DNA of 64,000 nt, from positions 2,335,501 to 2,399,500 of the forward strand of contig NZ_CP149926.1 in assembly GCF_037949285.1 (NCBI RefSeq), written 5' to 3'. This stretch comes from Thioclava sp. GXIMD4216. GTDB taxonomy: Bacteria; Pseudomonadota; Alphaproteobacteria; Rhodobacterales; Rhodobacteraceae. A model generated the notes under the pieces. The model saw only the letters and a program-made list of their open reading frames with translations, did not search any database and had not been told where the DNA came from. This document shows, one piece after another, positions 7,107-10,583 of this stretch. The first letter of the stretch is position 1, and each line of letters begins with the position of its first letter. The position numbers were made by a program, and so were the translations under genes.

Positions 7107-7589
7107 TTAGGCCCCCAAAAGCGAGAGCGGGTCGAAATCATCGCCCATCTCGTCGATCCATTGATCCACATTGGCCTGATCGGCATCCTCGAAGGTCTCG
7201 GGCTTCCATATCTCGAAGGTCTCGCCGACGCCGGCGAAATAGGCCTCGTTCTCAAGACCGATCTTTTCGCGCAGGAATGCCGGAAGGACCATCCGGCCAT
7301 CCGGATCGATCTCCAGCGGTTGCGATTTGGACAATACCATACGTTGCAGGATGGTACGGTTTTTCGAGCCGCGCGGCAGGGCCGCGATATCGGCCGCAAG
7401 CGCCTCGAAGGCGCTTTGCGTGTAAACCGTAAGCATTTTCTGATTGTCGGCCCCGTAGACGATCACCATGCGGGGGCGGTCCTGATTGGGGCGGCTCGGG
7501 TCACCGTCGGCCAGTTCTTGGCGATACGCAGCCGGGATCGACATGCGACCCTTGCTGTCCACCTTGAAGGTGTATTCGCCTATGAACAT
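7107..7589 (-). CDS. mraZ: Transcriptional regulator MraZ
   Basis: DNA-binding protein of the dcw cluster. Its 160 residues hold two SpoVT/AbrB-like swapped-hairpin modules, with DSKGRMSIPAAYR near the N-terminus and DPDGRMVLPAFLRE in the second half. I chose the ATG at 7589, which opens with the universally conserved FIGEY. Longer in-frame starts add a 48-residue non-conserved leader. In Escherichia coli MraZ binds 10-bp-spaced TGGGN repeats upstream of its own gene and represses the cluster. Similar repeats lie upstream here (7709-7732, 7897-7911, 8394-8446). Confidence 0.93.
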   Translation of the reverse strand: MFIGEYTFKVDSKGRMSIPAAYRQELADGDPSRPNQDRPRMVIVYGADNQKMLTVYTQSAFEALAADIAALPRGSKNRTILQRMVLSKSQPLEIDPDGRMVLPAFLREKIGLENEAYFAGVGETFEIWKPETFEDADQANVDQWIDEMGDDFDPLSLLGA

Positions 7590-7708
7590 GCCCGCCAATT
7601 GCGAACCCTCTCCTGCCCCTCTCGACGCACCTTCTGCCTCTGGCCGTCGGGTGTATTGGCGACCCCGAAGGGTCAGAATGAAAACGGCGGATTGAGCTGC
7701 TGCCACTG

Positions 7709-7732
7709 CCCAATCCGCCGCCCTCGTTCCCA
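7709..7732 (-). promoter_or_regulatory. TGGG pair 20 bp apart, weak MraZ-box candidate
   Basis: Read on the minus strand, TGGGA at 7732 and TGGGC at 7712 are exactly 20 bp apart, two turns of the 10-bp period of MraZ boxes. The expected middle repeat is degenerate. The site lies about 120 bp upstream of the mraZ start. This is a weak candidate by pattern alone. Confidence 0.3.
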
Positions 7733-7896
7733 TCTCTGGGCTGTCCGACTGCGCGCGCCACCTGGGGGGATGTCTGCTCGCTCGCGCGCCGGATCTCTCT
7801 TTTTCGCGTCAGGGGGTGCCTGTATGAAACTGCTCTTTTCGCCGTGAGGTCTTTGTGCCTCTATGTTCCCGCCTTTGCGATGAGTTAGGGATGCCA

Positions 7897-9600: not shown

Positions 9601-9789
9601 CGGGGCCTCCAGAACTCGAATTTCGCCGACTGTGGCCATTTGGACGCGCTGTTCAAGCCCCCGAAACGCCCTGCCCGCCGTTTTCCCGCAACCATGACGG
9701 GGCACACGCAATGAAATATCCGAATCCAGGGGGAAATAGGTCAGAATGTGTTATGCACTTTCCGCATGACGGGCTTGCCGCCGTCACCA

Positions 9790-9818
9790 TTGTGCGAACG
9801 CGGCATTTTCGCCATGTT
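9790..9818 (+). promoter_or_regulatory. Possible heat-shock-sigma promoter of the DUF1127/sRNA operon
   Basis: TTGTGC at 9790-9795 and CCATGTT at 9812-9818 with 16 bases between resemble RpoH-type promoters of Rhodobacterales, where the -10 element is CCAT-like. It lies 60 bp upstream of the DUF1127 gene. The related operon of Rhodobacter sphaeroides is transcribed by RpoHI/RpoHII, which is the main reason for proposing it. Confidence 0.35.
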
Positions 9819-9877: not shown

Positions 9878-10081
9878 ATGGCAGTAGCAACTGAAATCCG
9901 CCAAGACCGCCGTGGCTTTGGACTGATCGAAGCCCTCAAGGACGCGATCGCTCGTCGCAAACTCTATAACGAAACGCTGGCCGAGCTGCGCTCGCTCTCG
10001 ACCCGCGAACTGGATGATCTGGGCATGAGCCGCGCAATGCTGACCCGCGTTGCTGCAGAAGCCGCCTACGGTCGTCACTGA
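9878..10081 (+). CDS. DUF1127 small protein, CcaF1-like
   Basis: A 67-residue basic protein. The C-terminal half (LYNETLAELRSLSTRELDDLG then a short helix ending RVAAEAAYGRH) is a classic DUF1127 arginine-rich domain. It has an AAGGAA ribosome-binding site 8 bases upstream. In Rhodobacter sphaeroides the homologous gene product CcaF1 binds RNA and affects maturation of the CcsR sRNAs encoded directly downstream. Here, too, an array of CUCCUCCC-loop hairpins begins 15 bases after the stop codon. Function is inferred from domain and context, not from the sequence alone. Confidence 0.85.
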   Translation: MAVATEIRQDRRGFGLIEALKDAIARRKLYNETLAELRSLSTRELDDLGMSRAMLTRVAAEAAYGRH

Positions 10082-10095
10082 ACATAAGCTTCCAT

Positions 10096-10120
10096 AGGCT
10101 CCCTCCTCCTCCCTGAGCCT
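10096..10120 (+). ncRNA. Array hairpin 1
   Basis: Stem AGGCTC/GAGCCT (6 bp) closes a 13-nt loop, CCTCCTCCTCCCT. Confidence 0.75.
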
Positions 10121-10128
10121 TAGGAATG

Positions 10129-10164
10129 GGCGGCAGTCTCCTCCTCCTCCCTGAGACCGCCGCC
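10129..10164 (+). ncRNA. Array hairpin 2
   Basis: Stem GGCGGC-A-GTCTC pairs with GAGAC-C-GCCGCC (11 bp with one mismatch) around loop CTCCTCCTCCCT. Confidence 0.8.
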
Positions 10165-10202
10165 ACCCTTTACAGGCCCTGTTGCGCCACAGCCGGATAC
10201 GC

Positions 10203-10230
10203 CGATCTTCCTCCTCCTCCCTGAAGATCG
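10203..10230 (+). ncRNA. Array hairpin 3
   Basis: Perfect 8-bp stem CGATCTTC/GAAGATCG around loop CTCCTCCTCCCT. Confidence 0.8.
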
Positions 10231-10243
10231 CGTTTGTGAAGTC

Positions 10244-10277
10244 GGCGGTTCCTCTTCTCCTCCCTTGGGGAACCGCC
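10244..10277 (+). ncRNA. Array hairpin 4
   Basis: Perfect 9-bp stem GGCGGTTCC/GGAACCGCC around a 16-nt loop carrying CTCCTCCC. The 73-nt spacer that follows is the longest in the array. It holds a small motif-less hairpin, GGGAAG/CTTCCC, at 10323-10337. Confidence 0.75.
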
Positions 10278-10350
10278 AGACTTCTCTTTCGGCTCGAGAC
10301 GCCGCCGATGGTCTTGAAACACGGGAAGCCTCTTCCCATTTGCATACGGA

Positions 10351-10376
10351 CAGCCCGCTCCTCCTCCCTAGGGCTG
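10351..10376 (+). ncRNA. Array hairpin 5
   Basis: Perfect 6-bp stem CAGCCC/GGGCTG around a 14-nt loop carrying CTCCTCCTCCC. Confidence 0.75.
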
Positions 10377-10384
10377 ATCGTTTC

Positions 10385-10418
10385 GCGGTGTTCTCCTCCT
10401 CCTCCCTGAGGACACCGC
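10385..10418 (+). ncRNA. Array hairpin 6
   Basis: Eleven-pair stem GCGGTGTTCTC/GAGGACACCGC with one T-G wobble, around loop CTCCTCCTCCCT. Confidence 0.8.
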
Positions 10419-10427
10419 ATCAGATAC

Positions 10428-10455
10428 CGCGCCTCACTCCTCCTCCCGAGGCGCG
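10428..10455 (+). ncRNA. Array hairpin 7
   Basis: Perfect 8-bp stem CGCGCCTC/GAGGCGCG around loop ACTCCTCCTCCC. Confidence 0.8.
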
Positions 10456-10464
10456 CGTTAGGAC

Positions 10465-10489
10465 CGGTTCTCCTCCTCCCTGAGAACCG
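10465..10489 (+). ncRNA. Array hairpin 8
   Basis: Perfect 8-bp stem CGGTTCTC/GAGAACCG around the shortest core-type loop, CTCCTCCCT. Confidence 0.8.
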
Positions 10490-10500
10490 TTCCGTTTCCA

Positions 10501-10530
10501 AGGGCCCTCACTCCTCCTCCCGAGTGCCCT
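10501..10530 (+). ncRNA. Array hairpin 9
   Basis: Stem AGGG and CACTC pair with GAGTG and CCCT, with a four-base bulge at 10505-10508. The loop is exactly CTCCTCCC. Confidence 0.7.
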
Positions 10531-10540
10531 GGTCTACAAG

Positions 10541-10583
10541 AACGGCGATGCCCCTCTCCTCCCGGGCGTCGCCGTTTTTCTTT
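10541..10583 (+). terminator. Array hairpin 10, serving as rho-independent terminator
   Basis: Thirteen-pair stem AACGGCGATGCCC/GGGCGTCGCCGTT with one wobble, loop CTCTCCTCCC, followed by a T-rich tail (TTTC-TTT). It carries the loop motif of the other nine hairpins and ends the transcript. Confidence 0.85.

Follow-up and report, generated by a model that had tools for sequence, protein, structure and literature searches.

A DUF1127-linked array of five CcsR-like modules in Thioclava and its predicted LsrB/VtlR-type activator

Ten successive stem-loops, all carrying a CTCCTCCC motif, lie behind a small DUF1127 gene in a 64-kb window (the whole stretch of DNA that was analysed) of a Thioclava genome. 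A preliminary description had read them as about ten small RNAs in unusually large number. The locus raises the questions of what its repeated unit is, whether ten hairpins are many for such an array, and which regulator may act upon it.

Anatomy, conservation and class of the hairpins

All ten CTCCTCCC motifs found on the two strands of the window fall at 10106-10563 on the plus strand, each within a hairpin of 8-16 stem positions, and the array spans 10090-10579 (Table 1). The stems of H3, H4, H6, H7 and H10 pair in full when G-U is allowed; H2, H5, H8 and H9 have one mismatch, and H1 has two. CCTCCTCCC is present in eight of the ten hairpins, H4 and H10 having TCTCCTCCC, which is short of full CCTCCTCCC. 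Dinucleotide shuffles of 10082-10583 (n = 200) give on average 0.32 motifs and 0.005 motif hairpins, and shuffles of the remainder with the motifs kept fixed (n = 300) give a mean of 0.36 hairpins and a maximum of 3, versus 10 in the real sequence. Moreover, the fold z-score of the array region is -9.3. The claim that ten hairpins expose CTCCTCCC is thus borne out, all window motifs being in paired stems far above the shuffles, and so is the claim that a CcaF1-like DUF1127 gene precedes them, as the Pfam match shows (Table 1). H10 (16 pairs, loop of 10) ends in TTTTT and is terminator-like by eye, which supports the view that the last hairpin ends the transcript; the terminator scan, whose rule accepts loops of 3-8 only, reported none. 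H10 and its U-run are the predicted terminator of the array. An Mrp-type NTPase gene lies upstream of the DUF1127 gene in divergent orientation, and an RlmJ-type methyltransferase gene lies downstream of the array. Elsewhere in the window, an ORF at 7107-7733 on the minus strand reads by eye as MraZ; the mraZ 5' UTR of R. sphaeroides gives rise to the sRNA UpsM (PMC7866481).

Table 1. Features of the array locus (positions within the window)
Feature	Position	Strand	Basis or remark
LysR-type box ATGC-N7-GCAT (TGCA-N6-GCAT, fits T-N11-A)	9753..9767	+	Predicted LsrB/VtlR site
Promoter-like element: ATTGTGC 9789-9795, CCATGTT 9812-9818	9789..9818	+	
DUF1127 gene, CcaF1-like, 67 aa	9878..10081	+	Pfam PF06568, 39.4 bits, E 5.1e-10
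Module 1: H1 10090-10126, H2 10129-10164	10090..10164	+	CcsR1-model match 10088-10168, below cut-off
Module 2: H3 10203-10230, H4 10244-10277	10203..10277	+	CcsR1-model match 10195-10284, below cut-off
Motif-less spacer hairpin, conserved	10323..10337	+	Thioclava alignment
Module 3: H5 10346-10381, H6 10385-10418	10346..10418	+	CcsR1-model match 10342-10423, below cut-off
Module 4: H7 10428-10455, H8 10461-10493	10428..10493	+	Position; without its own CcsR1-model match
Module 5: H9 10501-10530, H10 10538-10579	10501..10579	+	CcsR1-model match 10494-10580, below cut-off

A pattern of three motifs matches all 16 Thioclava genomes searched, and a script counted ten hairpins in 13 of them, nine in two (G007 and G011) and eight in G006. 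In an alignment of the arrays of 15 of the 16 (G014 left out), whose genomes are related so that cells are not independent events, 95.5% of the cells at 91 stem pairs are paired versus 39-52% when the partners are slid. Two-sided changes occur at 45 of the 91 pairs (versus a mean of 20.7 over 500 shuffles, none of which is as high), a comparison that favours structure in that the structure scored was predicted on the same alignment; none of the ten motif stems lacks a pair with such a change. The loop is invariant across relatives and the stem is not. It is evident that stems and loops are both conserved across Thioclava, with the stems covarying, as would be expected of the hairpins that the preliminary description proposed. 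That description had also taken the motif-less hairpin of the spacer before module 3 for a possible decayed unit. Among the 15 aligned Thioclava rows, 95% of its cells are paired, two of its pairs have two-sided changes, and CTCCTCCC is absent at this place in every row, which argues for a conserved motif-less hairpin in its own right. In the same spacer, the string CTTGAAA-N15-CCCATTT at 10313-10341, considered as an internal promoter, resembles the sigma-32 consensus; of the other aligned rows, G013 alone shares its CCCAT, and the overlapping hairpin is conserved.

Rfam ar14 (RF02344) matches 10340-10463, within which module 3 falls, with 68.9 bits against a gathering cut-off of 58.8, and is the only family listed in the gathering-threshold scan of the window. 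A second, partly overlapping ar14 match at 10455-10579 (64.1 bits) comes from the whole-genome search only and is absent from the window scan. The Rfam CcsR1 model (RF02791) stays below its gathering score, its best match having 41.6 bits against a cut-off of 65.3, and we therefore file the array as cuckoo/ar14 in CIN1 organisation and not as Rfam CcsR1. The adjacent hairpins with CCUCCUCCC loops, and stems that are variable yet paired and covarying, are those of cuckoo/ar14 RNAs; the DUF1127 gene directly upstream on the same strand and, by sequence anatomy alone, the two-hairpin sRNA modules are those of the ccaF1-CcsR operon (CIN1). The ar14 score and the upstream DUF1127 gene thus support the earlier placement among the cuckoo RNAs with a DUF1127-CcsR organisation. 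Judged from its sequence, the array is genuine and strongly conserved, and it belongs to a known kind of sRNA.

DUF1127 linkage, array size and the repeated unit

The family survey covered 30 loci from at least 103 matching genomes among the 295 searched. Counted over related genomes that are not independent (some are near-identical, and Cereibacter johrii is represented by two contigs), a DUF1127 gene lies directly upstream of the array in 16 of 16 Thioclava, in 28 of 30 family loci among the matches listed, and in 44 of 48 named loci, where two of the four misses begin less than 100 nt from the locus end. Two loci scored as misses are L042, in which the DUF1127 gene stands behind a three-motif cluster and ahead of a further motif hairpin, and L037, in which no DUF1127 gene was found at the locus. 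Such strong linkage could indicate that the array serves the DUF1127 RNA-binding protein as a decoy or cis element, in the way that CsrB acts as a decoy for CsrA, and is not a source of base-pairing sRNAs. In R. sphaeroides, CcaF1 does bind RNA and affects the maturation of the CcsR RNAs (PMC10253847). However, this genome has two solitary cuckoo copies (L003 on contig C3 and L004 on contig C2), each consisting of one weak hairpin followed by a strong one, and DUF1127 was not found by profile in either 3.1-kb locus. Furthermore, the three-hairpin ar14 RNAs of S. meliloti are described as silencing their targets via anti-Shine-Dalgarno (aSD) motifs (PMC10746234), and the invariant part of the hairpins is the loop, complementary to Shine-Dalgarno sites, rather than the stem. 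We therefore regard the decoy reading as rather unlikely and keep to base-pairing sRNAs as the probable products of the array.

The size of the array is ordinary as far as these sequences go. The 30 arrays of other genera among the matches listed have 2-24 hairpins, and the 48 named loci, some of them near locus ends, have 5-17, with a median of 8 in both sets. The 24-hairpin array, behind DUF1127 in G180 (L039 / L174), is made of very similar 140-nt three-hairpin repeats and looks like a recent tandem expansion. Wenxinia marina (L072) has a 17-hairpin cuckoo array behind DUF1127. In Cereibacter, to which R. sphaeroides belongs in the NCBI taxonomy, the arrays behind DUF1127 in C. johrii (two contigs) and C. 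azotoformans comprise four pairs and hence exactly eight hairpins. With ten hairpins in 13 of 16 Thioclava, 2-24 in other genera and eight in Cereibacter, the copy number of the window cannot be called unusually large. When modules were compared among 10 Thioclava genomes (L009, L016, L018 and L020 dropped as near-duplicates, L011 and L021 dropped with 9 exact motifs), 45 of 50 modules had as their nearest relative the module that occupies their position in another genome. Because modules keep their positions across Thioclava, the hairpin count in this genus looks old and not the outcome of a recent expansion.

Several observations point to two hairpins as the unit that is repeated. The even hairpin is more stable than the odd one in 75 of 77 Thioclava pairs, and in 88 of 118 pairs from the 30 other-genus arrays among the matches listed, in which 30 pairs break this weak-strong rule. 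The median spacer in Thioclava is 5 nt from odd to even (within a pair) versus 33 nt from even to odd, and across the family, among the matches listed, 7 nt within versus 14 nt between pairs. CcsR1-model matches in the window, all below the cut-off, begin at odd hairpins only (1-2, 3-4, 5-6 and 9-10); the register is the same in L006 and L007, and L062 has five consecutive matches on five pairs. Behind the solitary pair on C2 stands a third copy of the motif, the best stem of which overlaps hairpin 2, and a box with one mismatch lies 80 nt ahead of the first motif of the pair. Stretches of 3.1 kb from C2 and C3 match Thioclava plasmids at 98.8-99.7%, as expected of a Thioclava genome. Odd hairpin totals were counted by script in 11 of the 30 family arrays (among the matches listed) and in 17 of the 48 named arrays, and the three-hairpin unit of the 24-hairpin array is a further exception to pairing. 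The named set was found by a CcsR1-consensus pattern and is biased to weak-strong pairs, so that its 172 of 205 is not independent support. The repeated unit hence looks like a two-hairpin module, which gives five modules and not ten sRNAs, and from the sequence we conclude that the window array consists of five CcsR-like modules, one more than CcsR1-4 of R. sphaeroides. The figure of about ten sRNAs finds no support in the weak-strong pairing, the register of the CcsR1 matches, the solitary pairs or the four-pair Cereibacter arrays.

Could the array still be ten independent single-hairpin sRNAs, expanded in number here to scale sponge or repression capacity? Ten motif hairpins are indeed present, and loop number could matter, given that S. 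meliloti NfeR1 is reported to have three aSD motifs that act redundantly (PMC10746234). Nevertheless, the hairpins pair into modules and their positions correspond across Thioclava, and we consider ten separate RNAs quite improbable. Finally, an origin as a palindromic mobile repeat or as CT-rich repeats of low complexity that arose by chance, which the repeat-like look of the region might suggest, is virtually inconceivable in view of the compensatory changes and shuffle tests (on which a repeat or mobile-element origin was rejected), the DUF1127 gene upstream in most loci, and the single and scattered occurrence of most other genomic CTCCTCCC copies.

The upstream box and a candidate LsrB/VtlR regulon

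Upstream of the DUF1127 gene lie a promoter-like element and a LysR-type box (Table 1). The strict form of the box, ATGC-N7-GCAT, occurs upstream of 84 of 95 array clusters; among the other 11, eight have it with one mismatch at the corresponding place, and for the remaining three the upstream DNA is shorter than 400 nt. It was found in 80 of 88 upstreams versus 0.35 of 88 after shuffling. The box by itself is not uncommon, with three occurrences in the window. The TTGTG and CAT-N-TT columns of the promoter-like element are invariant in an upstream alignment of 14 of the 16 Thioclava (G004 and G014 left out), and of 72 upstreams outside the genus, 64 have ATTGTGC. Both Cereibacter species also have the box and the conserved promoter block. 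The motif, TGC[A/G]-N6-GCAT, is the same as the LsrB site of S. meliloti NfeR1, and in the window, as in NfeR1, TGCA-N6-GCAT stands upstream of the core promoter. If transcription starts about 7-9 nt past the -10-like element, the box would lie at about -73 to -59, with a spacing apparently as in NfeR1, where TGCA-N6-GCAT spans -72 to -60 and transcription requires LsrB (PMC10746234).

A synteny of trxB with a LysR-type regulator (LTTR) gene is described as conserved in the class (PMC7486931). For six of eight alphaproteobacterial genomes, a single gene here, G000:C1:215465-216418, stands out as the best match of the LTTR encoded beside trxB, with 44-47% identity (next best about 30%); the 1.5-kb trxB flanks of the other two genomes yielded no LTTR match. 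This orthologue is not beside trxB here, and sequence motifs showed neither an LTTR nor trxB next to the suhB loci. Another LTTR, at L151, was rejected as LsrB; its neighbour reads by eye as an AhpF-like reductase, and it is taken for OxyR on that account. An LsrB/VtlR orthologue is present in all 46 array genomes tested.

Directly 3' of the LTTR gene lies a SorY-like sRNA (Rfam SorY, 56.5 bits, E 1e-9, below the cut-off of 111), and the order of LTTR gene, ATGC-N7-GCAT box and SorY-like sRNA (G000:C1:215465-216640, L142:1441-2616) recurs in relatives. Of 30 loci, 18 have the strict box in the first 420 nt past the LTTR gene, and none has it in the next 420 nt or in the 420 nt before the gene; a SorY core string follows the gene in 28 of the 30. 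A genus scan with ATGC-N7-GCAT-RNCGG found six sites in this genome, and the reversed control found none. Among 31 box loci inspected (30 from the genus scan plus L119), five are array promoters, two are SorY promoters, and six lie about 120 nt before a second DUF1127 gene, of 61 aa; the rest comprise two with one site before another ORF, one that could not be placed, and 15 without such a neighbour. In this genome the second DUF1127 gene is at L119:1501-1801, with its box at G000:C1:2545364, and five other Thioclava have the same arrangement. Pfam was run on two of these six second DUF1127 proteins, both of which pass.

In A. tumefaciens, VtlR directly activates abcR1, the sRNA vrsA and the small-protein gene atu1667, the last being orthologous to two B. 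abortus genes activated by VtlR (PMC7486931). We infer, in part from PMC12501420, that these VtlR-activated small proteins are DUF1127 proteins. The shared box leads us to predict that LsrB/VtlR activates the array, the SorY-like sRNA and the second DUF1127 gene. More broadly, we lean towards the view that one LsrB/VtlR-type regulator drives such a joint regulon family-wide, comprising the array, the adjacent SorY-like sRNA and the separate DUF1127 gene, as the counterpart of the rhizobial LsrB/VtlR circuit (AbcR, NfeR1 and the small-protein gene), and that it reflects an ancestral alphaproteobacterial co-control of aSD sRNAs and DUF1127 proteins. No link of LsrB/VtlR to CcsR or SorY was found in the full-text literature covered, which includes few of the subscription papers, and LsrB/VtlR control of the arrays would be a new regulatory prediction.

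Proposed mechanism and its implications

We are fairly confident that the locus is a DUF1127-cuckoo (CIN1-type) operon with a stress promoter, five CcsR-like modules acting by aSD repression, and LsrB/VtlR as its predicted activator. One stress-inducible promoter would yield the DUF1127 mRNA together with the 3' array of five modules, up to the terminator, and this promoter is predicted to be activated by the LsrB/VtlR orthologue, alongside an RpoH-type sigma factor. With R. sphaeroides as the model, the precursor would be cut in the spacers between modules by RNase E, aided by the DUF1127 protein. Each module would then show two CUCCUCCC loops, which presumably mimic the anti-Shine-Dalgarno tail of 16S rRNA. 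These loops may pair with Shine-Dalgarno sites of the GGGAGGAG type, to which CUCCUCCC is complementary, so that translation of transporter and carbon-metabolism mRNAs would be blocked under stress. As for candidate targets, GGGAGGAG stands 2-10 nt before an ATG at 21 places genome-wide, one of which is the array's own antisense, and the reversed pattern does so at 3. Outside the array, the 20 sites precede 15 ORFs with a Pfam family, four without, and one 6-aa ORF outside the scan; they are candidates only, with putative starts, and a strong Shine-Dalgarno site is enough to place any gene among them. They include four solute-binding proteins of transporters, an ABC ATPase whose ATG is seemingly internal, an aldehyde dehydrogenase above the ExaC cut-off (914 bits against 900), an Fe-alcohol dehydrogenase, PqqA, mesaconyl-CoA hydratase-like, HpcH/HpaI and catechol dioxygenase-like proteins, and others. 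As candidates, the transporters echo NfeR1, and alcohol oxidation echoes the effect of CcsR on C1 metabolism (PMC10746234, PMC10253847).

In R. sphaeroides, CcsR1-4 and ccaF1 come from one RNase E-processed transcript, and CcsR1-4 target the mRNA of the regulator FlhR and interact with Hfq (PMC10253847, PMC8307010, PMC7866481). The window array resembles this operon in its DUF1127 gene, tandem two-hairpin modules, CUCCUCCC loops and terminal hairpin terminator, but has five modules instead of four (a Cereibacter count taken from C. johrii and C. azotoformans) and misses the Rfam CcsR1 cut-off. With the cuckoo/ar14 RNAs of rhizobia (NfeR1, SmelA075 and SmelA099) it shares the CCUCCUCCC loops and variable stems and, with NfeR1, the LysR-type TGCA-N6-GCAT box upstream (PMC10746234); the rhizobial RNAs are described with three or four hairpins, whereas the ten hairpins here form a 3' array behind DUF1127. 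The VtlR/LsrB circuit of Agrobacterium, Brucella and Sinorhizobium likewise has the LTTR gene beside an sRNA, and its LTTR acts as an activator of sRNAs and of a small-protein gene (PMC7486931), a regulation that is predicted here. The circuits differ in that the LTTR-adjacent sRNA is SorY-like in Thioclava and the cuckoo modules there form a single array behind DUF1127; moreover, the Agrobacterium/Brucella VtlR box, given as GCAT-N3-TG-N3-T (PMC7486931), has no letter-for-letter match to ATGC-N7-GCAT.

Array size differs between genera and is near-constant within Thioclava, and such arrays should be counted in modules rather than in hairpins. Control of the CcsR and SorY RNAs has been attributed to the sigma factors RpoE and RpoH (PMC8307010). 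The box points to a second, possibly redox-linked regulator of these RNAs, and it raises the question of whether the sRNA circuits of rhizobia and Rhodobacter may have one origin.
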